From: a virus
Reading direction: 5' to 3' (one strand)
Virus record (IMG/VR): IMGVR_UViG_3300043425_001539
Coordinates: 174,476 to 238,475 of that record
Length of the DNA stretch: 64,000 bases
Shown: positions 68 through 31,302 of the stretch, piece by piece
Position numbering within the stretch: the stretch's first letter is position 1
Layout of the letters: every line of letters begins with the position of its first letter
Made by a program: the position numbers and the translations under genes
Notes under the pieces: model-generated
What the model was told of the DNA's origin: nothing
The model's database searches: none
What the model saw: the letters and a program-made list of their open reading frames with translations, nothing else

Positions 68-616
68 TTACCACAATCCATCAGAACTTTTAATATCCTT
101 GACTTTAGACAAATCCCAATCAAAATCTGAATGAACTTTAGATTTACTAAATATGCCTTTCATATATCTGACATTTCTAATATCCCAATTTCTTAGATTA
201 CCATCAAAAGGAGTATCATAAAACATAGATGCCATGTTGGTTACTTTACTAACATTCCACCCGCTAACGTCACCCTTAAAAGGTGTCCCTTCAAACATAC
301 CTTCCATGTTGGTTACATTGCTAACGTCCCATTCGCTAATGTCACCTTTAAAATCTGACCCATAAAACATGTAGGACATATTTTTTACATTACTAACATT
401 CCATTCGCTAATGTTGCCATTAAAAGGCATTTCTGCAAATAAGAATGACATGTCTTTAATTCGCGAAACATCAACATGACTTAAATCTGCATTAGGCCCA
501 AATTTAGCTATTTCATTTTCAATTATCGACTCTAAAGATTTCCGATCTATTGCATAAATAACTTTGTTTTGAGCAGCTTCGTTAAGAAACTGATCGAAAG
601 ATTTTAAATTTTTCAT
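68..616 (-). CDS. DUF285/BspA-like repeat protein 1 with capsid-targeting-like N-terminus
   Basis: The 182-residue protein starts MKNLKSFDQFLNEAA, resembling the T4 capsid-targeting sequence, with a possible protease cut after FLNE. From about residue 60 it has ~25-residue units of the form FNGNISEWNVSNVKNMSYMF, the DUF285 (BspA-like) repeat, predicted to fold as an elongated solenoid. It carries about four units, the fewest of the five paralogs here. It lies 4 bp from the next paralog, so the two are probably cotranscribed. Role unknown; packaging in the head is inferred from the N-terminus only. Confidence 0.85.
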   Translation of the reverse strand: MKNLKSFDQFLNEAAQNKVIYAIDRKSLESIIENEIAKFGPNADLSHVDVSRIKDMSFLFAEMPFNGNISEWNVSNVKNMSYMFYGSDFKGDISEWDVSNVTNMEGMFEGTPFKGDVSGWNVSKVTNMASMFYDTPFDGNLRNWDIRNVRYMKGIFSKSKVHSDFDWDLSKVKDIKSSDGLW

Positions 617-620
617 TTTT

Positions 621-1397
621 TTAAATTTTTATATGTTTCAGACCATACATTCTATCTACATTATCAGCCTTTGATAAATTCCATTGACTAATATCGCCTT
701 TAAACTTAGAGTCTAAGAACATTATAAATACATCTCTGACATTGCTAACGTCCCATTTGCTAATGTCGCCGTTAAATCGAGATTCTGCAAACATGTGCGT
801 CATATCTCTAACTTTGCTAACATTCCACTTGCTGATGTCACCGTTAAAAGTTGTCTTTTGAAACATGTGCGACATATCAATAACTTTGCTGACATCCCAC
901 TTGCTGATGTCGCCATTAAATTTAGACCCTTCAAACAATGATGACATCATTTCAACATTACTTACATCCCATTGACTAATGTCGCCGTTAAATTTAGAAT
1001 ATGCAAACATATCAGACATATCACGTACATTGCTTACATCCCACTTGCTAACATCGCCGTTAAACGAAGAATGACGAAACATTCCCCACACAGTGCGAGC
1101 ATTACTAACATTCCACTTGCTAACATCGCCGTTAAATTTTGAGAATGCAAATGTATCATTAAAATTAGTAACATTGCTTACATCCCACTTGCTAACGTCG
1201 CCGTTAAATTTTGTACCTGAAAAAGCGGCGCTTATATCGGTTAGACCTGAAACATCAATGTGATTTAAGTCAGCATTTGGTCCTAGCAATTGAATTTCTT
1301 TTAAAATAATTGGTTTTAATTCTTTTGCGTTCTTTGGGACAATAATTTCGCGTTCTGCTTCATTAAGAAACTGATCAAATGTTTTTAAATTTTTCAT
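621..1397 (-). CDS. DUF285/BspA-like repeat protein 2 with capsid-targeting-like N-terminus
   Basis: 258 residues. The N-terminus MKNLKTFDQFLNEAE is followed by a short helical linker, the shared phrase LGPNADLNHIDVSGLTD, and about seven 25-residue repeats with FNGDVSKWDVSNV cores and conserved MF and W positions. The units are nearly identical at DNA level (gctaacgtcgccgttaaatt recurs), so unit number could change by recombination. A possible late promoter (AATATATA, 1416-1423) lies just upstream. Confidence 0.87.
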   Translation of the reverse strand: MKNLKTFDQFLNEAEREIIVPKNAKELKPIILKEIQLLGPNADLNHIDVSGLTDISAAFSGTKFNGDVSKWDVSNVTNFNDTFAFSKFNGDVSKWNVSNARTVWGMFRHSSFNGDVSKWDVSNVRDMSDMFAYSKFNGDISQWDVSNVEMMSSLFEGSKFNGDISKWDVSKVIDMSHMFQKTTFNGDISKWNVSKVRDMTHMFAESRFNGDISKWDVSNVRDVFIMFLDSKFKGDISQWNLSKADNVDRMYGLKHIKI

Positions 1398-1422
1398 TTA
1401 CTATGTTTTTTTTTATATATAT

Positions 1423-2262
1423 TTAGTTAAACAAATCTTCTTTAGACGTTACGTCTCGCAGATTTGTCAAATTCCACATATGAACACTTCTTTTAAATTT
1501 AGATCCTTGGAAGATACTTTCAATGTATTGCACTTGTCTTACGTCCCACTTACTAATGTCTTGATTAAATGATGAGCCATTAAACATAAAACTCATATTT
1601 TCTACATTGCTAACGTTCCATTTGCCGATGTTTTGATTAAATCGAGAGTCAGCAAACATCCATTGCATATCGGTAACATTTAATACATTCCAATTGCCGA
1701 TGTCTTGATTAAATTTCGATAACCTAAACATATATGACATATCAGTTACTCGTCTTACGTTCCACTTGCTGATGTCACCGTTAAATTGTGATTCCGTAAA
1801 CATTCCACGCATCAGCTCTACATTACTCACGTTCCAACCACTGATATCTCCTTTAAATTTGGAATCTTTGAACATATTAGACATATCAATGACATTACCA
1901 ACATCCCATTTGCTGATATCTTTATTGAACTCTGATCCTTCAAACATACCTGACATATCTTTTACTTTGCCAACATTCCACTTGCTGATGTCACTATTAA
2001 AATGAGAATACAAAAACATATTTTTCATAGAAGTAACATTGCTAACATCCCACTTGCTGATATTGCCTTTAAATTGTGACCCTTCAAACAAGGATACCAT
2101 GTTGGTAACTTGCGAAACGTCAATATGATTCAGATCTGCTTTAGGTCCAAGTCTAGCAATTTCGCTTTCTACTATATCCTTTAAAGTTTGTCGATCTTTA
2201 GCAATAATAGTTTCTTGTGTAGCTTCATTAAGAAAATGTTCAAAAGTTTTTAAATTTTTCAT
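1423..2262 (-). CDS. DUF285/BspA-like repeat protein 3 with capsid-targeting-like N-terminus
   Basis: At 279 residues this is the longest of the five paralogs. It starts MKNLKTFEHFLNEATQ, then GPKADLNHIDVSQVTNM, then about eight repeats of the type FNGDISKWNVRRVTDMSYMF. Some units have FNQDIGNWNV instead of FNGDISKW, so two repeat subtypes are mixed within one protein. No signal peptide or membrane segment is visible, so secretion like bacterial BspA proteins is not suggested. Confidence 0.87.
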   Translation of the reverse strand: MKNLKTFEHFLNEATQETIIAKDRQTLKDIVESEIARLGPKADLNHIDVSQVTNMVSLFEGSQFKGNISKWDVSNVTSMKNMFLYSHFNSDISKWNVGKVKDMSGMFEGSEFNKDISKWDVGNVIDMSNMFKDSKFKGDISGWNVSNVELMRGMFTESQFNGDISKWNVRRVTDMSYMFRLSKFNQDIGNWNVLNVTDMQWMFADSRFNQNIGKWNVSNVENMSFMFNGSSFNQDISKWDVRQVQYIESIFQGSKFKRSVHMWNLTNLRDVTSKEDLFN

Positions 2263-2295
2263 TTACTATGTTTTTATTAATTTTAATATTGCACA

Positions 2296-2967
2296 TTATT
2301 TTTTTGCATATGAAGAGATTTTCCAATTTGAAGTATCCCCCTTGAAAGCTGAGTTATTAAACATGTCGGTCATATCCTCAACCTTACTAACATTCCACTT
2401 GCTGATATCTTGATTAAATTCTGAAGATTGAAACATTCCAGCCATATCATAAACATTACCTACATTCCATTTGCTGATGTCTTTGTTAAATCTTGAGTCT
2501 TGAAACATCCAAGACATATCAGTAACATTACTAACATTCCACTTGCTGATATCTTGATTAAATTCTGAATAAGCAAACATACCAGTCATAACTTTTACGT
2601 TGCTTACATTCCACCTGCTGATATCTTGATTAAATTCTGATGATGCAAACATATAGGCCATTAATCGAACATTCCGAACATTCCATCCTGAAATGTTACC
2701 ATTAAAGACTGACTCCTGAAACATATAGGACATGTTTTCAACTTGACTAACATCCCATTTACTTATGTTGCCGTTAAAATCTGAATTTTTAAACAACCCC
2801 GACATATCTTTAACTTTTGATACATCAATATGATTTAAATCCGCCGTAGAACCTTGTGTTTTGATTGCATCTTCAATTAGCTTTATTAAATCTGCTTTAT
2901 CTTTAGCAATAATTGTTGTGCCTGCTGCTTCATTAAGAAACTGCTCAAAGGTTTTAAAATTTTTCAT
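2296..2967 (-). CDS. DUF285/BspA-like repeat protein 4 with capsid-targeting-like N-terminus
   Basis: 223 residues starting MKNFKTFEQFLNEAAG. After the phrase STADLNHIDVSKVKDMSGLF it carries about six 25-residue repeats, mostly of the FNQDISKWNVSNV subtype. It ends with a short polar tail (NWKISSYAKK). It is first in transcription order of the four-gene array that runs down to position 68, and ~110 bp of AT-rich sequence separates it from the next upstream gene. Confidence 0.87.
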   Translation of the reverse strand: MKNFKTFEQFLNEAAGTTIIAKDKADLIKLIEDAIKTQGSTADLNHIDVSKVKDMSGLFKNSDFNGNISKWDVSQVENMSYMFQESVFNGNISGWNVRNVRLMAYMFASSEFNQDISRWNVSNVKVMTGMFAYSEFNQDISKWNVSNVTDMSWMFQDSRFNKDISKWNVGNVYDMAGMFQSSEFNQDISKWNVSKVEDMTDMFNNSAFKGDTSNWKISSYAKK

Positions 2968-5846: not shown

Positions 5847-6218
5847 TTAGTCTTGAGTAAAATCTTCAATCTTGTCATTGAAAGAAGATTGTTGATATGA
5901 AGATAAATTCTTAATTTCATCGCGTTTTCTTGGAGTTAACTCAATTACAGTGTACCCCATTCGGTAATACTTCTTTTCTGCTGCTGTCAAATTTTTATTA
6001 CGGCGTTTTGCAACTTCTTTTAAAGCTTCTTTGTCATTACCTGTTTCCATAACATCGCCCCAAGTTCCTTTAACAAAAATTGGGTATGTTCTTTTAGTGC
6101 CAATTGAACCTCCGTAATAAACCAAAGCAAATTGGTCAGATAAATTTACTTCATTACCTTCGTTGAGAAATTCTTCCGATTCGTTGATAAAATTATCAAA
6201 GTTTTGAATATGTTTCAT
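5847..6218 (-). CDS. Putative internal protein with capsid-targeting-like N-terminus
   Basis: 123 residues, starting MKHIQNFDNFINESEEFLNEG. The first 13 residues are identical to the next gene upstream (6231-6845), although the bodies differ, which suggests an exchangeable leader. Two LxE/IxE-type sites (FINE, FLNE) could both be protease cuts. The body (ALVYYGGSIGTKRTYPIFVKGTW...) has no recognised domain and is basic toward the C-terminus. Confidence 0.75.
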   Translation of the reverse strand: MKHIQNFDNFINESEEFLNEGNEVNLSDQFALVYYGGSIGTKRTYPIFVKGTWGDVMETGNDKEALKEVAKRRNKNLTAAEKKYYRMGYTVIELTPRKRDEIKNLSSYQQSSFNDKIEDFTQD

Positions 6219-6230
6219 ATTTGTGTTTTT

Positions 6231-6845
6231 TTATCCTACAATTGAAAAACTTAATTGATTTTCAGAAACTACCAAATTATAAACTTTATTAAATAGAGTC
6301 TCAACCTCACGTTTAATATCTGATTCAAGCTGTGCCCTACTTTTTTGTGCAAAGTATTGTTTTAGAGATGCTTGTTTAAAAATATTTGCAGTACTCCGGT
6401 AATTGCGTGCGCTTCCTACAAATGAAACATTGACAGTTCTAGTTTTTGCCGAAGGTATATTACTGATTTGCATGTCTTTTCCCAACTTAGATTTCACCAA
6501 ATCATTGTTTGCATTTTGCATCACTGCATCAACAAATAGTTTCAATCCAGCTAAAAAATCGCCCATTTCGTTTGCATTAAAATACGGTCCGCTACCTTGA
6601 GAAACAATTGTGTATTTATCTCCCCAACCGCTTTCTGCTATGTCACTTGTTACTGCATCATACCTACCTGTGCTTATTTTGCTTGGAACGGCCATAACAG
6701 GTACTTTGCCTCCAGCATATTGGATGGTAGCAGAATACCTTAAATCGCCGTATTCACCTACTCTCCATTGTGGCTTTCCTCCTGTCAAAGAAGCCTCGTT
6801 AAGATTTTCATTGATAAAATTATCAAAATTTTGAATGTGTTTCAT
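6231..6845 (-). CDS. Putative internal protein with capsid-targeting-like N-terminus
   Basis: 204 residues starting MKHIQNFDNFINENLNEASL, with cleavage-like FINE and NLNE sites. The rest is mixed alpha/beta with several basic clusters and no recognised domain. It lies between another leader-bearing gene and a DUF285 paralog. Function unknown; virion location inferred from the leader. Confidence 0.75.
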   Translation of the reverse strand: MKHIQNFDNFINENLNEASLTGGKPQWRVGEYGDLRYSATIQYAGGKVPVMAVPSKISTGRYDAVTSDIAESGWGDKYTIVSQGSGPYFNANEMGDFLAGLKLFVDAVMQNANNDLVKSKLGKDMQISNIPSAKTRTVNVSFVGSARNYRSTANIFKQASLKQYFAQKSRAQLESDIKREVETLFNKVYNLVVSENQLSFSIVG

Positions 6846-6859
6846 ACTTGTGTTTTTTT

Positions 6860-7474
6860 TTAATTATAAATTTTTGATTTATCAACAACTGTTGAAATTT
6901 GCCAATCCGATATATCTCCATTAAACTTTGAGTTCTTAAATATACCATTCATAGTCAAAACTCTTCCAACATCCCACTTGCTAACATCGCCATTAAACTT
7001 TGAATCCGCAAACAGCAATCTCATATCTTCAACATTTTTAGTATTCCATTTACTAACATCGCCATTAAACTCAGATCCTTCAAACATACTCTGCATATTT
7101 GCAACATTGCTTACATCCCATTTGCTAATGTCGCCATTAAACTTGGATCCTTCAAACATGCTTTTCATATTAGCAACATTGCCTACATTCCACTTGCTAA
7201 TGTCACCATTAAATTTCGAGAATGCAAACATGCCTTTCATATTGGCTACCTTTCCCACATTCCACTTGCTAATGTCACCATTAAAAGGTGAGTACATAAA
7301 CAAGTCAGACATATCAGTTATTTTGGATACATCTATGTGATTCAAATCAGCATTTGGTCCTTGCTCTGCTATTTCGGTTTTAACCAATTTTAAAAGCTCG
7401 GTTCGATTTGCAGGAACAACAGTTTCTTGTGTTGCTTCATTTATAAACTGTTCAAATGTTTTAACTGTTTTCAT
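6860..7474 (-). CDS. DUF285/BspA-like repeat protein 5 with capsid-targeting-like N-terminus
   Basis: 204 residues starting MKTVKTFEQFINEATQ, followed by GPNADLNHIDVSKITDM and about five FNGDISKWNVGNVANMKSMF repeats. It is the only DUF285 paralog outside the 68-2967 array, lying 3.9 kb away among other leader-bearing genes. Its repeats contain VGNV and NTKNV variants not seen in paralog 1. Confidence 0.87.
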   Translation of the reverse strand: MKTVKTFEQFINEATQETVVPANRTELLKLVKTEIAEQGPNADLNHIDVSKITDMSDLFMYSPFNGDISKWNVGKVANMKGMFAFSKFNGDISKWNVGNVANMKSMFEGSKFNGDISKWDVSNVANMQSMFEGSEFNGDVSKWNTKNVEDMRLLFADSKFNGDVSKWDVGRVLTMNGIFKNSKFNGDISDWQISTVVDKSKIYN

Positions 7475-7477
7475 TGG

Positions 7478-7840
7478 TTATTTATATTTTAAATTTGAAA
7501 TTTCGTCAATTAAACCTCCTAAGTTATAGTCGCTTTGTCTTGAACCGCTAAAAAAATGATCTTGAATTTTTTTATTAGTCGCGGAAGAATATATGTTTTT
7601 GTCCCAATCAATTCGGTCTATTGTCATATAATATCCCACATCTTCACCGCTGCTAAATCCTTTTGCTGTATATTTTTTATTTGAATTAGGCCTATCATCT
7701 GTGATAGCATAAGTTACTTTCAAGTCAAGATTAAGTGGAACAGAAATACCATCAATTGTGTAATTATCCAATTTAATATTTATGGTATTTAATTCTTCAC
7801 TTTCATTTAAAAAAGTTTCAAACGTTTTAATTTTTTTCAT
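7478..7840 (-). CDS. Putative internal protein with capsid-targeting-like N-terminus
   Basis: 120 residues starting MKKIKTFETFLNESEE, then a beta-rich body (NIKLDNYTIDGISVPLNLDLKVTY...) without a recognised domain. A TATAAATA sequence, identical to the T4 late promoter box, lies 32 nt upstream (7872-7879), so late expression of this gene and the genes below it is likely. Confidence 0.75.
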   Translation of the reverse strand: MKKIKTFETFLNESEELNTINIKLDNYTIDGISVPLNLDLKVTYAITDDRPNSNKKYTAKGFSSGEDVGYYMTIDRIDWDKNIYSSATNKKIQDHFFSGSRQSDYNLGGLIDEISNLKYK

Positions 7841-9053: not shown

Positions 9054-9233
9054 TTATTCTTCAGGCTTTTTAGAATTTTGTATTTCTATTCGCAAATCTT
9101 GAGCAAGAACTTTTAAATCCTGCATATACTTACGTGCCCGTGTGCCTGCTGCTTTGTTTCCTGACGCATAAAACTTTTCAATGTCGGATTTTGCCGCAGT
9201 AACTACTTCTAAAATTTGATTGTAAATTTCCAT
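9054..9233 (-). CDS. Hc1-like histone H1 family DNA-binding protein
   Basis: 59 residues from the ATG at 9233. MEIYNQILEVVTAAKSDIEK is followed by FYASGNKAAGTRARKYMQDL and KVLAQDLRIEIQNSKK. The KFYxxGNKAAGTRxRKxxQDLKxLAQxxR pattern is that of the Hc1-like proteins common in Bacteroidota, small basic chromosome-binding proteins. The upstream reading frame can be extended to 9365, but that part overlaps the LamG gene and is not homologous to the family. A GATATATA box lies 25 nt upstream. It may condense phage or host DNA. Confidence 0.8.
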   Translation of the reverse strand: MEIYNQILEVVTAAKSDIEKFYASGNKAAGTRARKYMQDLKVLAQDLRIEIQNSKKPEE

Positions 9234-9257
9234 AAATCTGTTTAATTGTTTAAAAAT

Positions 9258-9265
9258 TATATATC
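9258..9265 (-). promoter_or_regulatory. Candidate late promoter box (GATATATA)
   Basis: GATATATA on the minus strand 25 nt upstream of the histone-like gene start (9233); it overlaps the region just before the stop of the LamG gene. Confidence 0.4.
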
Positions 9266-9267
9266 TC

Positions 9268-10827: not shown

Positions 10828-10837
10828 TTTATCTGAT

Positions 10838-12670
10838 TTATTTTTTAAATGCCATATATTCCTCAAATTTCATAAATCTTTTTGGAACATTTTTATTTTC
10901 CTTTTTAATATCATCTTCATCATCTTTCTTTTCTTCCTCAGGCGCTTTTTCGTCATCTTTCTTTTCCTCCTCAGGTTTCTTTTCCTCAGGCGCTTTTTCG
11001 TCATCTTTCTTTTCCTCCTCGGGTTTCTTTTTATCTTCTTTATCTTCCTCGGGTTTTTTAACATCTGAAGTTTTTTCCTCAGGCTCTTTTTCTTCGCCAC
11101 CTAAATCTTTCAATTCTTGTATTGCATTTGTGATAGCTTCAGTGTCTTTTTCAGGCTCCAATTTAGGAAATTCTTTAAATGCTTTTGCTTCGTCGGGCAT
11201 TTCTTCATCCTCGCTTTCTATTCCTTTGTTAACCAATTCAACCATACGGTTGCGCAAATTAATTTGGTTTATCTTTGCTTGTTTAATTTTTTGTAAATCA
11301 GTGATTCCTTCGGTTGCAATTTTCTTTTTATCTTCGCCATCATAAGAATTAATACTTTTAAGTATAACACTTTTGATAGTACCTAAAGGGTCTTTTGATT
11401 CAGTTTCTTCGATAATTAAATTAATTGCCTCACTTAATTTAAAATTAATCATTCTGAATGAAGCAAAAGAAATTGATTCACTCATATTTTTTAATTCTTC
11501 TTTATAACCGTCAACCGTTTGTTTTGCTTTTTCTAAAGCATCACTAATTAATTTAGCTTTTTCTTCGTCGCCTGCTTCTTCAGCAGATTTTAACTCTTCT
11601 TCAGCTTTTTTAATTTTTTCTTCAGCTGACTCAATTCTATCTTTAAGTTCTTTGGTTTTTGAATCTTCAGTTTTTTCATCAGAAGATTTGTCAGATGTTT
11701 TATTTTGCTTGTCTTGAATAGCTTTTTCTATATCGACCCACTTTTTGTAAACTTCATTTGCTTTATTTGTGTACTCTGTGTATGCATCTTGCCATTGAGT
11801 AATTCCATACTTATTTAGAGATTCAATTTGTTTATTTGCTTTTTCAAATTGTTCATCAACATTTTCATCAACATTTTCATCATCTTTAACATCAGACAGC
11901 TTATTTTTTAATTCTTCAGATGTTTTTTTATCTCCCGTATCAGTTGCTATTTGAATTGCTTCTTCAAGAACCTCAATGTCAGCATTTCTTTTTGCTTCAG
12001 CAAATTCAAGATCCCATTTTTTCTTAAATGAACTTCCCAATATGTTGGATTGAAGTTCAATAAATTTTTCTTGTTTTTTTTCTATTTTTTCTTTTTCGGT
12101 TGTGTAATTATTTTCTGCCTTTTTCCACGCAACCTCTTTCATGTTTTCAGCTTTTTCCAATTCCTTTTTAGCATTTTCGGTATTACCTTTTGCCGCTGCT
12201 AATTTTTGATCTCGCTGTTTTCTTAACTGCTCTTGTTTTGCTGAGTTCCCTTCAGCTCGTTTAATCATTTCACGGTACTCGTCTTCAATTTGTGTTACAG
12301 CTGATTTATCTTCATCATCAGACGATGATTTGGTTTTTGCTTTAAGCGGCTCAATAACTTCAGTTTTATATTTATGATCAAATACATATTTTGATCTATC
12401 AGCGCTGGAATTTTTATAAGCTTCAATATATGGTTTTAATGAACTTTTTAATGACGTATAAATTGTTCTATTATACACAGACTTTGCAGCCAATAAAGCA
12501 ATGGATAACGTTCCTGCTGCTACTACATTTGCAACCGATTCCAATTCATTTCCTCCACCCCACGAAAATGGACCAATATCTAATCGAGTTGCCTCATCAC
12601 CTGAAAATTCATAAAGATGTTCATTGCTTTCAACAACAGTCTTTCTTTCAAGATAATCTTTAAACTTCAT
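10838..12670 (-). CDS. Long charged coiled-coil protein, possible prohead core/internal protein
   Basis: 610 residues. After a leader-like start (MKFKDYLERKTVVESNE) comes a short hydrophobic segment (residues ~47-66, VANVVAAGTLSIALLAAKSV). The bulk is Lys/Glu-rich coiled coil (~110-450), followed by a Pro/Glu/Lys repeat tail with units such as EEEKKDDEKAPEEKKPEE. It ends RFMKFEEYMAFKK, which again resembles the leader motif. It is directly downstream of the capsid gene and has a GATATATA box 26 nt upstream. Scaffold or core function is inferred from position and composition. Confidence 0.65.
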   Translation of the reverse strand: MKFKDYLERKTVVESNEHLYEFSGDEATRLDIGPFSWGGGNELESVANVVAAGTLSIALLAAKSVYNRTIYTSLKSSLKPYIEAYKNSSADRSKYVFDHKYKTEVIEPLKAKTKSSSDDEDKSAVTQIEDEYREMIKRAEGNSAKQEQLRKQRDQKLAAAKGNTENAKKELEKAENMKEVAWKKAENNYTTEKEKIEKKQEKFIELQSNILGSSFKKKWDLEFAEAKRNADIEVLEEAIQIATDTGDKKTSEELKNKLSDVKDDENVDENVDEQFEKANKQIESLNKYGITQWQDAYTEYTNKANEVYKKWVDIEKAIQDKQNKTSDKSSDEKTEDSKTKELKDRIESAEEKIKKAEEELKSAEEAGDEEKAKLISDALEKAKQTVDGYKEELKNMSESISFASFRMINFKLSEAINLIIEETESKDPLGTIKSVILKSINSYDGEDKKKIATEGITDLQKIKQAKINQINLRNRMVELVNKGIESEDEEMPDEAKAFKEFPKLEPEKDTEAITNAIQELKDLGGEEKEPEEKTSDVKKPEEDKEDKKKPEEEKKDDEKAPEEKKPEEEKKDDEKAPEEEKKDDEDDIKKENKNVPKRFMKFEEYMAFKK

Positions 12671-12852: not shown

Positions 12853-14724
12853 TTAAGCAATAGTTGAAGAAGTAGATACTTGATCCCAGAAAGTACCGTT
12901 AAGATCTTTCAAGTTAATCAAGAATGTGAAGTATTGCGTTTGTGGGTGGAAACCAGCCTCAACAAGTGCATAACGAGATTTAACAGCAATTTTTGGTGCC
13001 ATTGTACCTTCTGCAATTGTTTGGATAGATTCAGCCATCAAGTATGGCATGAACTTAAGACCTGGCTCTTCATCAGCGCCTTTTCTACCAACAAGAATAC
13101 GAGTATCTTCGTACTTCATATTTGGATCAACATAAATCGTCATACCAGCGATCGTTCCCAATGGGTAAAGAGCGCCGTTATTTTGATTTACTGTGTTAGC
13201 CAATGGGTAGAAAGTAAACTGTGCAGAATCCTGAAGTGCTGTTGCAATTTGCAAGTTAGTCACTACAAAGTTACCTGGTCCACGACGGCCGCGTTGTGCA
13301 ACAACGTTTGCCGCAGCAAGAACTTTGGATTGGATTCTTCTTTGGAAAGTACCTTGGTTTTCAAAAGTAGTTGCAGAAGAAGTTCCGTATACTTGAACAT
13401 CTGGGCAAGGAATTGAAACCAATGAGTTTTCTTTACCAATGAAACGAGCATTACCAGTTGATGTTTGGTCAACAAGGGTAAGGTTAAGGTTAACACCGTC
13501 TACATTGTAGAAATCATAGTGGTTCTGCCAGCCAAGTGCAAATGCGCGAGACAAGATGTGTTTGTTGATTGACTGAGAAATCTCATTAACCAACGCATTT
13601 TCCATCATAGAAACAACATCGATACCGTACTGACGGTTAAGATCTTGAATTTGCTCAGTTGTTACAGTTGCAGCAACTTGGTAAGTTTCAGCTTCAACAA
13701 ATTTGGTGAAAGCTTGCAAGCCCATTGTTCTGTACTGAGTAGTTTCACCAACACCACGGCGCATTGGCTCGTAAGGAGTCAAACCGTTGGTTGCATCACC
13801 TGCAAAAGCATCGTTATCAAGAGGACCTGATCCAGCAAATCCTGCAATGTGATCTTCAAGAGCGCGAACCAATTCAGCAGAACCAGTGATATCTCCAGCA
13901 GCACCTACAATTGTCATTCCAGTTGTTGTGTAAGTGGAAGGATTAGTAAGAGCATTTCCAGAGTATGAAGTTGCAGAATACAATGTTGCAGCACCGTCCA
14001 ATACATCAGCAAGAGTAATACCTTGTGTATTTGCAGGAAGAGCATTGAATGTTTGAGCGCCTGTGCTTGTTACAGCAGTTGATTCGCCAAGAATACGGAA
14101 GATTTGCCCGCCGTCGATTCTTGATTTACCTACATAAGCAACAAGAAGTCCGTCGATGCCAGCACCTGCAGCAGCAGCGGTAAATACATAACCGTCACCA
14201 GCATTCGCAGTTGCAAGATCAGCAAGTGCAGTTGCGCCCAAGCCAGAACGAGAAATCTTGAATACCAAGAATTTATCAGTAAATCCTGTGTTGCCAGTCA
14301 AACCGTTTTGACCTTTGATACCAGGAGCATTTACATCACGTCCGCCAGCATATACATAATCAAGATATGTAAGAACACCCGCAGGGCCATTCATAGGAAT
14401 TACAGGAACGATATCGAAGCCAACTGTTCTAGCAGCAACCTGAATTGCCAACGGAAGTAAAGATGGGAATTTATCGCCAGATCCCAATGCATTTGCGCTG
14501 TAGAAGGCACCCGCACCGCCAGCAACTGTAGAAGCTGGAGCAACGTTACCCATACCTGGTGTATTTAAAAGTGATGCTTGTGGGTAAGCAAAACCTTCAT
14601 TGAGTGAATGGTAATGAGCATACTTACTCATCCATGTTAGTTTGTTTGATTCTTTAATACCCGTCTTTTCCTCAAGAATAGGGGCCCAAGTCTCAAACAC
14701 TTGTGATTCATTTAACAAGTTCAT
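12853..14724 (-). CDS. Major capsid protein, T4 gp23-like
   Basis: 623 residues. The segment DIVPVIPMNGPAGVLTYLDY (residues ~100-120) matches the gp23 region ICGVQPMNSPTG; AETYQVAATVTTEQIQDLNR and GPGNFVVTNLQIATALQDS match conserved gp23 core segments. The N-terminal arm has LLNE (residues 3-6) and SLNE|G (41-44), both matching the prohead protease consensus, so maturation probably removes about 43 residues, comparable with the ~65 removed from T4 gp23. It is about 100 residues longer than T4 gp23, mainly in an insertion around residues 130-260. It lies 21 bp after the protease gene and ends at a strong terminator. Confidence 0.95.
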   Translation of the reverse strand: MNLLNESQVFETWAPILEEKTGIKESNKLTWMSKYAHYHSLNEGFAYPQASLLNTPGMGNVAPASTVAGGAGAFYSANALGSGDKFPSLLPLAIQVAARTVGFDIVPVIPMNGPAGVLTYLDYVYAGGRDVNAPGIKGQNGLTGNTGFTDKFLVFKISRSGLGATALADLATANAGDGYVFTAAAAGAGIDGLLVAYVGKSRIDGGQIFRILGESTAVTSTGAQTFNALPANTQGITLADVLDGAATLYSATSYSGNALTNPSTYTTTGMTIVGAAGDITGSAELVRALEDHIAGFAGSGPLDNDAFAGDATNGLTPYEPMRRGVGETTQYRTMGLQAFTKFVEAETYQVAATVTTEQIQDLNRQYGIDVVSMMENALVNEISQSINKHILSRAFALGWQNHYDFYNVDGVNLNLTLVDQTSTGNARFIGKENSLVSIPCPDVQVYGTSSATTFENQGTFQRRIQSKVLAAANVVAQRGRRGPGNFVVTNLQIATALQDSAQFTFYPLANTVNQNNGALYPLGTIAGMTIYVDPNMKYEDTRILVGRKGADEEPGLKFMPYLMAESIQTIAEGTMAPKIAVKSRYALVEAGFHPQTQYFTFLINLKDLNGTFWDQVSTSSTIA

Positions 14725-14745: not shown

Positions 14746-16590
14746 TTAACGTTTTACGAATCTGTTCAATCCGTTTGCTACATTCTTAACATAATCATTT
14801 GAGTAGCCAAGAGGATTAATGTCATTCTTAGCAGTCTCAATTCTTTTTGATTCATTAAGACTTTCAACAATGGCTTGATCAGTTTTGCCAAGTCCTCTTG
14901 TCTGCCAGAAGTTATTGATTTGGTATTGAGTTTCCAATCTGTAAAGGTTGGCTTGACGTGTGATGCGGTCTTTAACTTCCGTTGATGCTGCTTCCCAAAC
15001 AGGAAGGTATTCAACAGGCATGTTAGTCAACCACTTTTCGTTAGTTTCAACATTTGCAAGTGCAGATTCCCAAACTTTAACAATTCTTTCTTCGCTGAAA
15101 GAAGGATTAGCGTTGAGAGCGTTGGTGACCCTTTGCTTTTCGGTCTCGTTCAAAGAAAAGAATTCATTTCTTTTGTTCTCTCCTAAGAATTTTACGAATG
15201 GATAACGAGCATCATTAGATTTTTCATCTACCTTTTGTTTTTTGATAGAATCCAATACTGCTTCAATTTTATTATCAAGACTAGCGTATCTGTTTACAAT
15301 ATTTTCTTTGATTGAAGAAGATACCATGTCTCTTTCTTTGTTTTCTGATACATCAAATGATTTTCCATCAGCTGAAGGCATCATATTTTCAAACATATGT
15401 TCTGCATATTCAGTAAGATTTTTAAAGTCTTGTTTGGATGCAACATTTTCAGTTATATATTCTGTGTAACGAATTGCATTATCGGTATGTTCAGCAATAT
15501 ATTCTGCATATGAAAGAGTTTGATTCATTTTCTCTGCAAGATAATTGCCATACTTGATGCTCTCTTCCAATTTTTCAGCTACATATTCATTATAGTTGAT
15601 AGAGCTATTTAATTTTTCTGCAAGATAATTGCTATATTCAAATCCTTTGTCCATTTTTTCAGCAATCATTTCTGAGTACTGAATACCACGATCAGATTTT
15701 TCTGCAACATATTCAGAATATTTAATATTTTGGTCCAGTTTTTCACCAAGATATTCTGAATAAGCTAATGCCTGATTTTGTGTTTCAGACAAATAGTTTG
15801 CGTATTTACGGAGATTATGAATTTCTTCTTGAAGCTTGTCAATTTTTTCATCTTTTTCCGTAATGGTGGAAATAGAGTTTAATCTTTCGTTAATCTTAGC
15901 AATTTCGTCTTTAATAATCAACGAATATTTGTTCATTTCCTCAATGGATACAAATTCATTTTGTGACATATTTTCTTTTATTTTTTCCTTTTGAGTATAT
16001 ATCTCATTAGAATCCATGCTTTCAAAAAAAGCTGGGAACTCATTGGTTACATCATAAATTGCAACTTGATCATTATTGTCAAAACCAAGGCTTTCATTAA
16101 TTTTACTTAAGCGTGCATTTTCAAATCCAGGATCAGCAACAAGATCATACGTAAAAATTCTTTTGATCTGAACTTTTTTGTTTTCACCAACCACACCTGC
16201 TGCTCTTGACGAAATGCTAATAGGAACACCCGTGTCAACTAAATTTTTAGCAATTTGTCCACTTGGTGTATCAAGAAGCTTAATTCTTCCTACAATTTGT
16301 CTTTTCTTTGCATCATATTTAATATCTTCAATCAAGTGACTTACTTTTGATAAAGAAATATCAAATTTATCTGGGTGATCCAATTCTCCCAAAAGACGAT
16401 TTTCAGAAATCTTCTTTTTTAAATAATCCAGGTGAGGAAGATATTCTTTTTCTTCATATATACGATTATTATTATTCTCTACTCCAAATTGTGCAAAAAC
16501 ACCTTCAAGAACATAATCGTCATTTTTTTTACTTACTGAAAGATTTTCACCAGATCTTTCAAGTATCATTAAGTATTGCTTGTTACTCAT
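14746..16590 (-). CDS. Prohead protease (T4 gp21-like) fused to a repetitive scaffold-like coiled coil
   Basis: 614 residues from the ATG at 16590, chosen because gp21 homology begins there. Residues 1-170 are the protease: GVFAQFGVENNNNRIYEEKE, LLGELDHPD with His72, and VPISISSRAAG with Ser127/128, all aligned with gp21. Residues ~263-382 hold about eight 14-residue repeats of the form YSEYVAEKSDRGIQ, two heptads each, ideal for a coiled coil. Nearly every unit contains (L/V/I)AE, the protease's own consensus. The C-terminal ~200 residues are helical. T4 uses separate gp21 and gp22 genes; no separate gp22 gene is visible here. Confidence 0.9.
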   Translation of the reverse strand: MSNKQYLMILERSGENLSVSKKNDDYVLEGVFAQFGVENNNNRIYEEKEYLPHLDYLKKKISENRLLGELDHPDKFDISLSKVSHLIEDIKYDAKKRQIVGRIKLLDTPSGQIAKNLVDTGVPISISSRAAGVVGENKKVQIKRIFTYDLVADPGFENARLSKINESLGFDNNDQVAIYDVTNEFPAFFESMDSNEIYTQKEKIKENMSQNEFVSIEEMNKYSLIIKDEIAKINERLNSISTITEKDEKIDKLQEEIHNLRKYANYLSETQNQALAYSEYLGEKLDQNIKYSEYVAEKSDRGIQYSEMIAEKMDKGFEYSNYLAEKLNSSINYNEYVAEKLEESIKYGNYLAEKMNQTLSYAEYIAEHTDNAIRYTEYITENVASKQDFKNLTEYAEHMFENMMPSADGKSFDVSENKERDMVSSSIKENIVNRYASLDNKIEAVLDSIKKQKVDEKSNDARYPFVKFLGENKRNEFFSLNETEKQRVTNALNANPSFSEERIVKVWESALANVETNEKWLTNMPVEYLPVWEAASTEVKDRITRQANLYRLETQYQINNFWQTRGLGKTDQAIVESLNESKRIETAKNDINPLGYSNDYVKNVANGLNRFVKR

Positions 16591-16701: not shown

Positions 16702-17346
16702 TTATTTTCTTAATATTACACGTATAACTACTGGGTTTCTATCCCCGAAAGGTGATAAATTGTTGGATTGTATTACATATTCTGGAACAAAACCTATTTC
16801 TTTAACTCTTCTTAAAAAATCTTCCAAAATATTAAATCTACGGTAATGTCCGTCAAATATCCACTCATTTTTACTTATCATTTGTCCTTGTCCACAAAGT
16901 TCATCATAATTTGATCTTGTCTCAACAAAAAATAACCCTCCATCCTCAATTAAATCGTATATGGATTTAATTGTCCTATATTCACTTACATCATCCACAC
17001 TATGTAAAGAAAATCTTGAATATGCAACATCAAATGTTTCTTTTATTTCAAGACGAGTAAAATCCGCAACAAAGTAATTAACCCGAGTATTTTTTTCTTT
17101 TAATTTATTAATTGAAACTTCTGAAAGATCACACGCGTAAACTTCATTTTTTAAAGCTAAATGTTCAGCGTCTCTGCCATTACCGCATCCAATTTCAAGA
17201 ATTTTGTATTTCTTGTCCTTATTTTCAGAATTTAATATTTGTTGTGTAAAAAGAGCAAAGTTTGATGGATTGGATATTTCAGGAGCGTTTTGCTTTTTTT
17301 CATAATATTCATTCCAATATTTATTATCTTTAATATGTGCTATCAT
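16702..17346 (-). CDS. Class I SAM-dependent methyltransferase
   Basis: 214 residues. ILEIGCGNGRDAEHL (about residues 49-63) is the SAM-binding motif I, followed by the acidic strand VYACDLSEVSI and the motif IV-like FDVAYSRFSLHS. It resembles TehB/UbiE-type small-molecule methyltransferases rather than DNA methylases (no DPPY/NPPY catalytic motif). Its start overlaps the LicD-like gene by 4 bp, so the two are coupled and may modify the same substrate, for example a surface sugar. Substrate unknown. Confidence 0.85.
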   Translation of the reverse strand: MIAHIKDNKYWNEYYEKKQNAPEISNPSNFALFTQQILNSENKDKKYKILEIGCGNGRDAEHLALKNEVYACDLSEVSINKLKEKNTRVNYFVADFTRLEIKETFDVAYSRFSLHSVDDVSEYRTIKSIYDLIEDGGLFFVETRSNYDELCGQGQMISKNEWIFDGHYRRFNILEDFLRRVKEIGFVPEYVIQSNNLSPFGDRNPVVIRVILRK

Positions 17347-18065
17347 TTTCTTATTTCCTTTTCTTTGTTTTTAAAATTATAATAATAATGCCCGTCCAAA
17401 TCTAGCAAACACCAGGGTTTATTTTTTCGATAGTCAAATGTAGGATCAGGAACATTCCACTCTTTTCCGTATAACTGTTCCAAATAACTTTCTACATCAG
17501 AAGGTATTTTAAATTTAACACCTTTGAATTGCATGGTATCAAGTTTTTGTATATACTTACTCTTTGTTCTGATGTACTGTTCGCGCCCGCCATATTTAAA
17601 CATATGATAATCTTCATGCGGAAAATATAAAAATATGTCACATGAAATTTCAATATCTTTAAATTTAACAACTTTATTGTTTTTCTTTAATACAAATTTA
17701 AGATTTCTTGATTTAACAAATTCATCATTTTCCAAATGATTTAATATATCTTCAGTATCATAAAACATTCTGTTTGGTACCGATAGTCTATCTTGTAAAT
17801 CTTGTATCAATTTAGGTGTTATGTCTTCAGCTAAAATACCAACATCACAATCACTGTCGCCGTCAATAAGAGCTTTATCTCGGTAAATACCAAGAAGAGT
17901 TCCACAATCAACCCAAAACTTGGCATTGTGTTTGTTAAAGATGGCAATTAAATCTTGTAAATTTTGAAATTGTAAATCCTTTAATTTTTGATAATCATCT
18001 TTGGACCAGCTATCTTTGCTGATATTTGCCTCGTTTAACCAATCTGTGTAATTTTTAATATTCAT
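17343..18065 (-). CDS. LicD/fukutin-like nucleotidyltransferase-fold protein with capsid-targeting-like N-terminus
   Basis: 240 residues. FWVDCGTLLGIYRDKALI (residues ~50-67) and GDSDCDVGILAED (69-81) are the signature of the LicD family, which transfers phosphocholine or related phospho-groups to glycans. The N-terminus MNIKNYTDWLNEANISK resembles the internal-protein leader (cut after WLNE). A GATATATA box lies 26 nt upstream. It is coupled to the downstream methyltransferase. Confidence 0.75.
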   Translation of the reverse strand: MNIKNYTDWLNEANISKDSWSKDDYQKLKDLQFQNLQDLIAIFNKHNAKFWVDCGTLLGIYRDKALIDGDSDCDVGILAEDITPKLIQDLQDRLSVPNRMFYDTEDILNHLENDEFVKSRNLKFVLKKNNKVVKFKDIEISCDIFLYFPHEDYHMFKYGGREQYIRTKSKYIQKLDTMQFKGVKFKIPSDVESYLEQLYGKEWNVPDPTFDYRKNKPWCLLDLDGHYYYNFKNKEKEIRK

Positions 18066-18194: not shown

Positions 18195-18509
18195 TTACAA
18201 AGAAGTTGACACAACAGACTTCCTATCAGGCATTTGAAGGCTATCCTCGTTTGAATTTGAAAATGATACTTGTTTCAATCCATCCTCTGTGCTAAAATCC
18301 GCAATTTTTTTACCAGCGCTATTTTTAACAATCCCTGACATCATTTTTCCGTCAAAATAGCTAACTTCAATATTTTTCCCATTCTTAAGATAGCTTACAG
18401 TTGTTTTAAGCTTTTCCAATGCGCTTTGAATTTTTTGTACCAATACTGATTCTTGCATATTAGATTCATTTAAAAAGGATTCAAACGTTTGAATGTGCTT
18501 GTTTTTCAT
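18195..18509 (-). CDS. Putative internal protein with capsid-targeting-like N-terminus
   Basis: 104 residues, starting MKNKHIQTFESFLNESNM. After the leader there is a helix (VLVQKIQSALEKLKTTVSYL) and a beta-rich C-terminal half (KNIEVSYFDGKMMSGIVKNS). No recognised domain. An AATATATA box at 18550-18557 lies 41 nt upstream. Confidence 0.75.
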   Translation of the reverse strand: MKNKHIQTFESFLNESNMQESVLVQKIQSALEKLKTTVSYLKNGKNIEVSYFDGKMMSGIVKNSAGKKIADFSTEDGLKQVSFSNSNEDSLQMPDRKSVVSTSL

Positions 18510-22895: not shown

Positions 22896-22896
22896 A

Positions 22897-23256: not shown

Positions 23257-23727
23257 TTATATCAATTTATTATTTGTATACGAATAGTCTAAATCATCTA
23301 TCTCATCTTTTAACTTTGCTATCTGATTTACTTTACTCGTATCTCCGTTTTCTTGATATTTAATTTGCAATGCCATTAAATCATTAAAGGCATTATGTAT
23401 TTTTACTCTATCTTTTGAGTTAACCGCAGCAATTATTTTATCACCCAATTTTTTGTCTATTTCTGGATGGTCATCAAGAATTTCTTCAATTGATGCTTTT
23501 CTCTTAGAAACTTTTTTATCAATTTTTTCTTCCTCCTCTTCCTTTTTCTTTTTTATTGCCTTCTTTTCCTTTTTAAAAGGATCTTCTTCATCGGATTTTG
23601 ATTTATCCTTTTTATCTGAATCATCAGATTTATCTTTGTTATCAGATTTTTCTTTATCTTTATTTAAAAAAGCCAACGGATCTTCTTCTGTAATAAAATC
23701 TTCAAACAATTTAATGTATTGTTTCAT
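23257..23727 (-). CDS. Charged putative internal protein with capsid-targeting-like N-terminus
   Basis: 156 residues starting MKQYIKLFEDFITEEDP. Residues ~20-75 are a run of Asp, Lys, Ser and Glu (KDKEKSDNKDKSDDSDKKDK), likely disordered. The rest is helical (RKASIEEILDDHPEIDKKLG...). Highly charged composition is typical of T4 internal and core proteins that contact packaged DNA. Confidence 0.65.
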   Translation of the reverse strand: MKQYIKLFEDFITEEDPLAFLNKDKEKSDNKDKSDDSDKKDKSKSDEEDPFKKEKKAIKKKKEEEEEKIDKKVSKRKASIEEILDDHPEIDKKLGDKIIAAVNSKDRVKIHNAFNDLMALQIKYQENGDTSKVNQIAKLKDEIDDLDYSYTNNKLI

Positions 23728-24360: not shown

Positions 24361-24639
24361 TTACTTAATATCAATCTTGATATTATTAAATTGAATACTC
24401 TGTAAACCTGAATATTCTTTCTTTAATTTTGTAATATTTGCCTGATCTTGCAAAAGACCAACAATTAAGGATGTATCAATACTTTTTAATGTTCCATCCG
24501 AAGAAATGGTTAAAACGCCATTTTTATATGATACATCCTTAATTATATTTGAATTTGATAATATTCCTCCAATTAATTTCTCAAACTTTTCCCCACTTTC
24601 CGATTGTGATTCATTAAGAAATTCCAAAAATGATAACAT
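24361..24639 (-). CDS. Putative internal protein with shortened capsid-targeting-like N-terminus
   Basis: 92 residues starting MLSFLEFLNESQSESGEK, a truncated version of the leader with an intact FLNE site. The remainder is beta-rich (YKNGVLTISSDGTLKSIDTS) and ends NNIKIDIK. No domain recognised. Confidence 0.7.
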   Translation of the reverse strand: MLSFLEFLNESQSESGEKFEKLIGGILSNSNIIKDVSYKNGVLTISSDGTLKSIDTSLIVGLLQDQANITKLKKEYSGLQSIQFNNIKIDIK

Positions 24640-28488: not shown

Positions 28489-29565
28489 TTATTTTAAGAG
28501 AGATTTGGCTAAAGCAACATACTCTTGAATGACTTTTCTCACCTTTTCAATGGTTTTAATTGCTTCGGGTGATTCAGCTTTATTAAACTTGGATGCATTA
28601 AACATCTTCATCATTTTTTCTTCGTATCTTGCAACAACTGCGCGATAAAATTCATCAGCTGATTTGTATTTAATGGTTGTTCCAAATTCGCCCAACTGTT
28701 CAAGTGTTTCACCTAAACCACGAATACCTTCACAAAGATCTTCAAACTTAGGACTGTTGGCATTCATACCTCGCCAATTTGCTAAGCGGGATGCAGGCTC
28801 ATATTTTTGTGATGTTCCTGATTGTTCCCAAAAGAATTTGCCAATATCACGGATAAAGTTTTGTGCATCCGCAGTTATAAGAATATCATCAACACCCGCT
28901 CTTTTGCTATACGGCGCCATCACTTGTCCGTTAAATTTGGCACGTACACCTCTTGCTTGAATTGAAATGTCAAGAACCTCACCTAATGATGAATAGAGAT
29001 TACCCAAGACAAATCCTTTAACATTTCGTATAGGTGTCATTCGGAAAAGTGTCCATTGAGTGTATTCTTGAGGTGTAACTACCAAATCCACTTGTACGTA
29101 TCCCACACCGCCGTTGCGCATTGCAACCTCCAATATCAATTTAAGTGACGCATCACTTGATACTGCTTGACTTTCCTCCAGGTCAACCTCTGGAATCTTA
29201 GCAGACTTCAACCAATCCATAAATTCAGAATTATACAATTTGGTAGAAGAGATTTCGTTGTTGCGTTCGTTGGCGTCCAATGCAAGAGTGGGATAACCTA
29301 CCAAATAGTCAACATCACCATATGTCTTGTCGGGTTGATTCTCTAAATCTTCGGTCCACCAAGTTCCACTTCCAATCGGGCGAACAAAATCCAGCGGCGG
29401 CAGACCAATACTGGCCAAATGCTGATTGAATCCTTTGGAGATTTTTTCCATAAGTTTAACCACTTCACCAATTACATCAGGTGTAATACTGGTGCCTTGC
29501 GTTTTGGTAGTGGCCCATCCGCCTTCAGCGATAAATTCTTCAAATAGTTTTATGTATAGTTTCAT
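28489..29565 (-). CDS. Nucleotidyltransferase with capsid-targeting-like N-terminus
   Basis: 358 residues. The leader MKLYIKLFEEFIAEGGW (FIAE, as in T4 IPIII) precedes a Pol beta-type fold: VRPIGSGTWW (~61-70), GDVDYLVG (83-90) and YVQVDLVVT (157-164) give the GS and three catalytic Asp residues. It could add nucleotides to RNA, protein or a small molecule. The gene is less AT-rich than its neighbours. It is coupled to the phosphatase gene upstream (4-bp overlap). Confidence 0.8.
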   Translation of the reverse strand: MKLYIKLFEEFIAEGGWATTKTQGTSITPDVIGEVVKLMEKISKGFNQHLASIGLPPLDFVRPIGSGTWWTEDLENQPDKTYGDVDYLVGYPTLALDANERNNEISSTKLYNSEFMDWLKSAKIPEVDLEESQAVSSDASLKLILEVAMRNGGVGYVQVDLVVTPQEYTQWTLFRMTPIRNVKGFVLGNLYSSLGEVLDISIQARGVRAKFNGQVMAPYSKRAGVDDILITADAQNFIRDIGKFFWEQSGTSQKYEPASRLANWRGMNANSPKFEDLCEGIRGLGETLEQLGEFGTTIKYKSADEFYRAVVARYEEKMMKMFNASKFNKAESPEAIKTIEKVRKVIQEYVALAKSLLK

Positions 29566-30506
29566 TGTATTAAATTGTTTTCAAATATAATATCCGCAAT
29601 CTTTCTTGACGCTCGTGTATCACTGGGATAATGAATTGCCGTTATCTCGCGACTGCGTGCAATCTTTTCCCCCAAGGCCTTGAGTTCATCCTGAAGCGCA
29701 GGATATTTTTGCGCATAATATCGACTCATAACCAATCCTGTAAGTGCATGTCCACTGGGATATGAAGCCGTCATTGCATCAGTTTGAATCAAGGGATAAA
29801 TAGGCATGTTATAGCATTTTGCCAATTGGTAAGGACGAGGACGATTAATCACGTCTTTCAGAAAGAACAGCAGACTATCGGTTTGACTGTCAATTCTAAA
29901 AAAGTCTCCCATACTCTCATCATACCCACCGGCTTTCAATAAGTCAATAAATGTTTGTGCCAAATTGCTTACATCATCAACGTAGCGCGCAAAAGTAATC
30001 TCATCAGCCGTCACTTCACTACAGAATTGTAACAATTCTTCCAAATCCGCGCGTGTTTCTCCGCTTGAATTGCGAGGCGCCTCGGCCCGCAACTTGTCAA
30101 CCCAACCCTGCGCAATAAACCAGTTTTTAATCCGGTCGTGGGTATGTTCTGCAATCTCTTGAAACTCTTGAGTCTGATTCCCGTAAACTACTCGATCCAC
30201 ATCCCAATTGTCAACATCAGTCAACTCCGCTTCGGCCAACAAGTCTTTCCGTCCCAATTGCCGATAAACCTCTTTCCGTGTCTTTTCCATTTTTTCTGCG
30301 TATTCCGGGTCTTCATTCCTGTTAAAAACAATTTGTTGCGTTAGACTTCCGCTGATCTTTTTGAGATCACTCTTGCGTGTTTTGATTAGCCAGGCAGCCA
30401 AATCCCGGATACTCAAATCCCGAAATCTTCCCTCTGCCTCAGGCGCATCACTGTCTCTCCATTTGGGACGTTTGGCTTCAGACAACCATTCTTGAAAACT
30501 TTTCAT
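29562..30506 (-). CDS. PAP2-family phosphatase with capsid-targeting-like N-terminus
   Basis: 314 residues from the ATG at 30506. The start MKSFQEWLSEAKRP is close to T4 MKTYQEFIAEA. The C-terminal third has the complete PAP2 triad of motifs: KDVINRPRP (217-225), PSGH (250-253) and SREITAIHYPSD (285-296). No transmembrane segments are visible, so it resembles soluble class A acid phosphatases rather than membrane lipid phosphatases. The N-terminal 200 residues are charged and helical. Substrate unknown. Confidence 0.85.
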   Translation of the reverse strand: MKSFQEWLSEAKRPKWRDSDAPEAEGRFRDLSIRDLAAWLIKTRKSDLKKISGSLTQQIVFNRNEDPEYAEKMEKTRKEVYRQLGRKDLLAEAELTDVDNWDVDRVVYGNQTQEFQEIAEHTHDRIKNWFIAQGWVDKLRAEAPRNSSGETRADLEELLQFCSEVTADEITFARYVDDVSNLAQTFIDLLKAGGYDESMGDFFRIDSQTDSLLFFLKDVINRPRPYQLAKCYNMPIYPLIQTDAMTASYPSGHALTGLVMSRYYAQKYPALQDELKALGEKIARSREITAIHYPSDTRASRKIADIIFENNLIQ

Positions 30507-30507
30507 A

Positions 30508-31302
30508 TCAATCAATTTTTGTAATTGTGGTAATCACGCTGGGCACAGCTGGTCTAACCGGACCTGTCCGACTGGCAATGGCTTCCAATTTAACATTACT
30601 GGTATCAGGTGACCAAACCAAGCTAACTGTGTCCCCTGCATTAAGAGCCACTTGATAGTTAATAACAAACAAATCACGAGTGCCGTTGCCATTAAGTGAA
30701 AGATCAGTTGACGAATAAGCCACATCCAAACCATTGATTCGCAACCAAAAAGTTGCCGCCGCGCTTCCTCCCGCAGTATGAACCACCTGTATACTACTCA
30801 AAATAAGATATATGCCATCAACCCCAATCTCAATCTCTTGTCCATCCAGGCTGAGACTTACGCCAGTTGCCTGATCAACAAGATCATGACTAATCACCTG
30901 TGCCACATCTTCAACGCCCAATTGTTGAACCGTTGACAAGAAAGACCCATACGCAGCAATTCCACTACTACCACTTGAACCACTACTACCACTTGAACCA
31001 CTACTACCACTTGAGGGAAAAGTCTCAACCACTTCAGTAATTGCATGTATAGGAACAACATGAGCAGAGCCCAATACCTGAATCCAACCCTCAGAAGACC
31101 TCGTTGCCCGATTACATAAATAGGCACTAGCAGCAAAAAAACTAGTAGCGTCCGTAGAGAATTGTTGATCCTGTCCAGTTAATAATAGATCAGTACGAAA
31201 AGGAACTTGTGTTTCATCAAGAATCCAATAATACTCTTGATCCTGATAATAACCACTGGTAGGATCATATCCATAACCGCGAATGATTTTGGGTAACAAC
31301 AT
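30508..31302 (-). CDS. Virion structural/fibre-like protein with Ser-Gly linker
   Basis: 264 residues. The N-terminal domain (MLLPKIIRGYGYDPTSGYYQ, to about residue 92) is joined by a SSG-repeat linker of about five units to a C-terminal jelly-roll-like domain (IEIGVDGIYLILSSIQVVHT, DTVSLVWSPDTSNVKLEA) similar to C1q/TNF-type phage fibre tips. The repeat tract (tactaccacttgaaccac in DNA) could vary in length. Lies 1 bp from the phosphatase gene. Confidence 0.7.
   Translation of the reverse strand: MLLPKIIRGYGYDPTSGYYQDQEYYWILDETQVPFRTDLLLTGQDQQFSTDATSFFAASAYLCNRATRSSEGWIQVLGSAHVVPIHAITEVVETFPSSGSSGSSGSSGSSGSSGIAAYGSFLSTVQQLGVEDVAQVISHDLVDQATGVSLSLDGQEIEIGVDGIYLILSSIQVVHTAGGSAAATFWLRINGLDVAYSSTDLSLNGNGTRDLFVINYQVALNAGDTVSLVWSPDTSNVKLEAIASRTGPVRPAVPSVITTITKID

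Follow-up and report, generated by a model that had tools for sequence, protein, structure and literature searches.

A phage prohead protease fused to a scaffold-position region of tag-like repeats, and related motifs at the N-termini of other proteins

Described prohead proteases, scaffolds and targeting sequences

In bacteriophage T4 the prohead protease gp21 and the scaffold gp22 are encoded separately, within the gene order gp20-67-68-21-22-23, and their copy numbers differ widely (72 gp21 vs 576 gp22; PMC9026906). The scaffold is cut into fragments (PMC9026906) and contains 20 [LIV]xE motifs in 269 aa. The T4 internal proteins IPII and IPIII both start with MKTYQEFIAE, followed by Ala after the cut site. 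According to a review of mutant work on this tag, residues 4 and 7 are the main determinants of targeting and residues 8 and 10 those of processing; with Asp at residue 10 processing stops while targeting still works (PMC9026906).

The locus described here lies in a 64,000-nt window, the whole stretch of DNA analysed, to which all coordinates refer. It resembles T4 in the family and fold of the protease, in its place before a gp23-type gene, in its [LI]xE sites, in N-terminal tags comparable to YQEFIAE/A (a slash marks the putative cut) and in a scaffold part rich in such sites. T4 differs in having separate genes, as had been pointed out in the original prediction, a gp22 without a repeat array and few tagged proteins, whereas the phage studied here has one gene, about ten tag-like units and dozens of tagged ORFs.

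Related phages are either fused (PTm1, TM30 and Lak) or split (T4) at this locus. In the Tenacibaculum phages PTm1 and pT24 the protease is fused to a scaffold-position region between the portal and capsid genes, and the PTm1 product carries the annotation 'prohead core scaffolding protein and protease'. The cultured PTm1, however, has no YxxYLAE array but ∼15-residue repeats with LSE/ITE sites (L264:6007-7701, + strand); it was considered as a cultured test case and set aside, its N-termini showing no clear tag of this type. Rhizobium phage TM30 encodes a 503-aa protease fused to a scaffold-position region, with no gene between protease and capsid gene, and it also differs in lacking the YxxYLAE array. 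Fusion alone is therefore not new, as PTm1 and TM30 have it. The Prevotella Lak megaphages share the fused protease, a related C-terminal domain and a methionine (Met212) before the scaffold part, but carry an acidic linker and lack both the array and tags of the type aromatic-x-x-aromatic-[LIV]-x-Glu (2 counted, 1.4 expected). In lambda (C/Nu3) and in herpesviruses (UL26/UL26.5) a protease is likewise fused to the scaffold and an internal start yields free scaffold; these sequences are unrelated or distant and are not known to have a cargo-tag array. Every element of the present arrangement thus has a precedent, namely the T4 tag, the fused protease-scaffold and the overlapping scaffold gene of lambda and herpesviruses. 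Giant phages of the SPN3US/phiKZ type have a gp21-related prohead protease and N-terminal propeptides on several head proteins, with AXE specificity and long propeptides; no such array is described in these two papers (PMC10052503, PMC5694885). A literature search that covered few subscription journals found no scaffold made of targeting units, no large tagged megaphage proteome, and nothing on capsid-targeting sequences in megaphages or on fused protease-scaffold repeats.

The fused gene and its 14-residue repeat array

The gene is a single ORF running from an ATG at 16590 to a stop at 14746-14748 on the minus strand (Table 1). Its product consists of the protease domain, a variable linker, nine in-register units with an offset tenth, and a helical C-terminal domain. 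The protease domain matched PF03420 (peptidase S77; E 2.7e-12, 47 bits against a cut-off of 27, Pfam) and phrog_207 (E 7.4e-42), and its structural model matched the T4 gp21 structure 5jbl (E 1.6e-9, Foldseek), showing the gp21 fold. His72, Ser127 and Ser128 were invariant across 22 relatives, and the His72 and Ser127-128 regions align with the GELNHP and VSSRG (SSR) motifs of T4 gp21. The first 166 residues form a prohead protease of the T4 gp21 type (S77 family), and the gp21-like protease with His72 and Ser127/128 that the original prediction placed in one polypeptide with the repeats is borne out. A second S77 protease gene was ruled out, as there is one per genome.

Table 1. Positions of the fused gene, its parts and the tagged ORFs in the 64,000-nt window.
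Feature	Position	Strand	Basis or remark
Fused prohead protease-scaffold gene, 614 aa	14746..16590	-	ORF and profile matches
Protease domain, aa 1-166; His72 and Ser127 at gp21 active-site positions; end at invariant INE166/S	16093..16590	-	
Conserved internal ATG (Met208), A-tract upstream; proposed start of free scaffold, aa 208-614	15967..15969	-	
Nine 14-residue units in register, resembling the T4 capsid-targeting sequence, aa 263-388	15427..15804	-	
Tenth, offset unit YAEHMFE, aa 395-408	15367..15408	-	
Helical domain of the C-terminal part, aa 460-563, also identifiable in Lak phages, pLDDT ∼78	14902..15213	-	Prediction and alignment
Glu580 of C-terminal site LNE/[SN], kept in 21/22 relatives	14851..14853	-	
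gp23-type major capsid protein; conserved N-terminal site HYHSLNE/G	12853..14724	-	PF07068, E 3e-38
Four similar DUF285-type ORFs, tag K[TS]F[DE]xFLNE/A	68..2967	-	DUF285 shown for 68-616
Four tagged ORFs: 5847-6218, 6231-6845, 6860-7474, 7478-7840	5847..7840	-	
Tagged LicD-family protein, YTDWLNE/A	17343..18065	-	
Tagged ORF, FESFLNE/S	18195..18509	-	
Tagged ORF, FEDFITE/E	23257..23727	-	
Tagged ORF, FLEFLNE/S	24361..24639	-	
Tagged ORF, FEEFIAE/G	28489..29565	-	
Tagged PAP2-family protein, FQEWLSE/A	29562..30515	-	

The in-register units start at residues 263, 277, 291, 305, 319, 333, 347, 361 and 375, and the tenth, at residue 395, is shifted by six residues from this register. About eight units, each with (L/V/I)AE, had originally been predicted; the 14-residue repeats stand, as do the gp21-type sites, since all ten units contain [LIVM]xE, while the count rises to nine plus the offset tenth and the strict (L/V/I)AE form is limited to six units (the others have LSE, LGE, ITE or MFE). 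The repeat array is beyond chance: eight motif pairs were spaced in the 14-residue register, as against at most one when the same 200 residues were shuffled 20,000 times, and the region held 15 [LIV]xE compared with 5.4 ± 1.9 in shuffles. At the DNA level the units have a mean identity of 50% with each other, and this divergence indicates that the array is not a recent repeat expansion.

The units of relatives were aligned by register alone, leaving out the end units and without selecting for Glu. Glu7 was found in 144/152 units and had the highest information of all positions (3.91 bits), and Tyr1 (3.55 bits), Tyr4 (3.12), Ala6 (2.96) and [LIVM]5 (149/152) were also strongly kept, as was the pair Leu5/Ile13. 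The unit consensus is Y-x-x-Y-[LIV]-A-E, in its general form aromatic-x-x-aromatic-[LIV]-x-Glu. It is rather doubtful that this array is a structural coiled coil only, with [LIV]xE arising from helix composition and processing restricted to INE166 and LNE580. Fourteen residues do correspond to two heptads, and a profile of the array shows similarity to coiled coils of chemoreceptors (E 1e-4). The two flanking sites, INE166 and LNE580, vary least of all and carry residues like those of the tags; L030-type relatives keep a 14-residue repeat largely without LxE, and many units of LR756500 no longer have the Glu. Against this, Glu7 is the most conserved residue although a helical-wheel calculation places it 180 degrees away from the hydrophobic face, other exposed positions vary far more, and LxE is in excess over shuffles (15 vs 5.4). 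In AlphaFold runs with two family alignments, which bear on the two-heptad coiled coil suggested originally, the array was predicted as helical only at low confidence (pLDDT 35-40) and was not resolved.

A profile search of IMG/VR returned at least 588 relatives (matching stretches); the nearest 80 of these all had arrays, of 4-15 units and mostly 9 or 13, and the array of the 735-kb phage LR756501 had 12. Apart from the protease gene, no array-bearing protein was found in ten phages. Two groups are array-less, the Lak phages, with the acidic linker instead, and L030/L034, whose 14-residue repeat is mostly without LxE. In the protease-domain tree the Lak phages are outermost and the L030 group branches off next, leaving the array phages in a single clade of modest support.

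Tag-like N-termini and candidate cleavage sites

As a tag we counted aromatic-x-x-aromatic-[LIVM]-x-Glu lying no more than a few residues from a start, and the expected number was derived from the rate in protein interiors. In this contig 28 of 324 ORFs carried it, against 0.9 expected, or ∼27 once the ORF at 8592-9005 (FDTFFKWVKELE) is removed as a chance match; a few more such matches are possible, and the DUF285 paralogues among these ORFs are related to each other. Relatives gave 27 tags vs 2.3 expected and 20 vs 0.7, LR756501 gave 36 vs 1.6 in 400 kb, and LR756500, despite its many degenerate units, still gave 21 vs 2.2. Among the flanking ORFs of relatives 59/1008 were tagged (1.8 expected), two of the 59 being pieces of the array. 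Alongside the value for Lak given above, the array-less G005 had one tag (0.8 expected) and G009 none (0.7 expected). The pieces read of G002, G011 and G012, with 13-14 units, contained few or no tags, and no clear trend of unit number with genome size or tag number was seen by eye.

N-terminal aromatic motifs were also gathered without requiring Glu. In array phages 140/267 of them run on to Glu, compared with 9.6% inside proteins (Fisher p 3e-52), and in array-less phages 4/54, compared with 8.8% inside proteins (Fisher p 1.0). The array phages are a single clade with two array-less clades beside it, so this co-occurrence of array and tag may reflect one event.

The tag consensus is roughly M-K-x-[IV]-K-x-[FY]-E-x-F-[LI]-N-E/[ASG]. 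The tagged ORFs show what is expected of a T4-type targeting sequence, i.e., an N-terminal position, aromatic residues where targeting is determined and [LI]xE where processing is. Residues 4, 7, 8 and 10 of the T4 tag (Y, F, I and E) correspond to unit positions 1, 4, 5 and 7, and at these four residues, on which targeting and processing reportedly depend, the array units match YQEFIAE. This match of the repeat to N-terminal tags on many proteins of the same phage was missed in the original prediction, as was the conserved internal start described below. Tags and units have the key residues in common, with Phe and Asn (P2) in tags and Tyr and Ala in units; the units are internal and share with the tags the motif but not the terminal position. 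The tags are probably removable address sequences and may direct proteins into the head.

Several ORFs with known domains carry such N-termini. Five BspA/DUF285-like ORFs (those at 68-2967 and 6860-7474, minus strand; Pfam match on one) are tagged KTFDQFLNE/A or similarly and are possibly a packaged cargo family. A tagged cytidylyltransferase-like protein of a relative (L038:13495-14076, minus strand; E 1.9e-7) is predicted to be a packaged enzyme. A 2'-5' RNA ligase superfamily protein at 22344-22946 (minus strand), with a weak match to the anti-CBASS protein Acb1, starts with the degenerate tag-like KFIKLFEEFIALFE. The array-less L067/L071 (G005) and L075 (G009) have another repeated N-terminus, MKAKF[IV]YES[LM][ND]FERGxDPKxxMGI, probably the targeting tag of that group, by which the address would differ by clade.

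Outside the array, the strongest sites across the 22 relatives were INE166/S, with which the protease domain ends (22/22), E429 (21/22) and LNE580, and in most relatives the capsid protein carries HYHSLNE/[GS] or a similar sequence. INE166, LNE580 and HYHSLNE are candidate cuts that would free the protease and mature the shell, and conservation of these sites suggests cleavage after [LI]xE as the candidate specificity of the enzyme. The array sites have Ala at P2 and usually Asn or Lys at P1', whereas the tags and the capsid site have Asn at P2 and mostly Ala, Ser or Gly at P1', and hence the array may be cut poorly. By analogy with T4 gp22, it is nevertheless plausible that the array is shredded by the activated protease, as had been proposed at the outset. 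The units could instead form a multivalent platform on which the protease or a tag-binding receptor docks, and be bound and not cut. Conservation of the aromatic targeting positions 1 and 4 and the P2/P1' difference from the likely cut sites agree with docking, but we consider it unlikely, since in T4 residue 10 governs processing and Asp there still targets (PMC9026906), and strict conservation of the equivalent Glu7 points to cutting.

Scaffold position, internal start and proposed scheme

The capsid gene begins 21 bases past the stop of the fused gene, and LR756501, LR756500 and G006 have a 550-610-aa gene in the portal position upstream of it. Given the T4 gene order, the second half of the fused gene takes the place of gp22; the fusion of protease and scaffold-position region claimed in the original prediction is thus confirmed as a single 614-aa frame in the place of gp21 and gp22. 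A separate gp22-like gene was not found with profile phrog_237 in the contig or in ten related records, while the T4 positive control was detected; in the contig alone, a 238-kb fragment, this absence is weak, and it gains weight from related GenBank records of 462-735 kb. The C-terminal part showed no homology to gp22 (two sequences, T4/S-SM1; hhalign probability below 1%), and the C-terminal half was rejected as a gp22 homologue against PA5oct/Kaldavass proteins as well (hhalign). The C-terminal part is in scaffold position, yet by sequence it is no member of the gp22 family. It shares with gp22 the site between protease and capsid gene, a helical character (at low confidence in the array) and many cleavage-type sites, which suggest a scaffold role.

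Other ORFs lie near the head genes. Just downstream of the capsid gene, at 10838-12670 (minus strand), an E/K-rich protein of 610 aa (44% charged, no family) is encoded, which may be a further core protein. A Histone Hc1-like protein (9054-9365, minus strand; E 5.5e-20) and a SET-domain protein (10345-10866, minus strand; E 2.4e-15) were also found.

Fusion poses a problem of stoichiometry, considering the T4 numbers given above, which a second, free scaffold product would solve. All 96 of 96 distinct relatives have a methionine shortly before the scaffold start, recognised by pattern in 89 and by eye in 7; it follows a hypervariable linker and precedes the conserved [FY]V[TS]xxxxNxYS by a few residues. 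The true starts of 186 tagged ORFs and 46 capsid genes, 232 in all, served to train a start model. The mean score was 3.56 for the internal ATG, 2.52 for true starts and -1.91 for other in-frame ATGs (AUC 0.943), and the internal ATG was the best-scoring ATG in 78/89 genes. Met212 of the Lak phages is at the equivalent place, and in Rhizobium phage TM30 Met207, with GGAG upstream, is at the equivalent boundary. Owing to the ATG in all 96 relatives and its true-start-like score, a free scaffold is probably also made from Met208. This evidence is good but not conclusive, as the relatives are not independent and a Lys/Asn-rich linker would itself raise the A content; a conserved in-frame start with an initiation signal at the scaffold boundary, as in lambda C/Nu3, supports its use without proving it. 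That the C-terminal part merely carries the protease into the head, and that an unrecognised protein such as the 10838-12670 product is the scaffold, is quite improbable: that product is 44% charged and adjoins the capsid gene, the C-terminal part has no gp22 homology and a one-to-one fusion without internal start gives a poor stoichiometry, but the fused part sits in the gp22 position, its homologues in PTm1 and pT24 bear a scaffold annotation, the internal start could give the excess, and G001, G003 and G005 have no similar large charged gene beside the capsid gene.

The explanation that we favour, and hold to be fairly probable, is the head-maturation protease of a T4-related giant phage fused to a scaffold with about ten copies of a targeting and cleavage motif, with tagged proteins joining the core and one cut pattern dismantling it. 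Its basis at the sequence level is the fusion, the array, the conservation, the tag census, the co-occurrence, and the conserved ATG with start-like upstream sequence; from these we infer the scaffold role, the contact of tag and scaffold, cleavage of the array, packaging of cargo and use of the internal start. The middle of the scaffold would be a long amphipathic helix of about ten copies of the phage's own targeting and cleavage motif; the full-length protein would bring the protease into the core, and the Met208 product would add free scaffold. Dozens of cargo proteins, each with one N-terminal copy of the motif, would join the core because the tag resembles a scaffold unit or binds one. 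Once active, the protease would cut after Glu at INE166 (freeing itself), LNE580, the capsid HYHxLNE and the cargo tags, and probably at many scaffold units, so that the core becomes short peptides, cargo is freed inside the head and DNA can enter. The array would then be the unit of both assembly and dismantling of the scaffold, copied by the cargo tags. A stronger form, in which polymerised cargo address tags make up the scaffold, with entry by mimicry, one cut pattern and the internal start, is put forward tentatively. Against it speak the P2/P1' residues of the units, the single clade of array phages, T4, whose gp22 lacks an array although the phage has the tag, the 21 tags of LR756500 beside many degenerate units, and the scarcity of tags in the pieces read of G002, G011 and G012.

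The arrangement suggests how very large phages load their heads with proteins and then clear the scaffold. The family is common, as IMG/VR contains at least 588 matching stretches. Should the tag prove to copy the scaffold repeat, short peptides would allow a direct test of what its receptor is. The tag could also serve to load foreign proteins into very large capsids. If the scheme is true, sequence alone would reveal dozens of packaged, probably injected proteins in phages of up to 735 kb.
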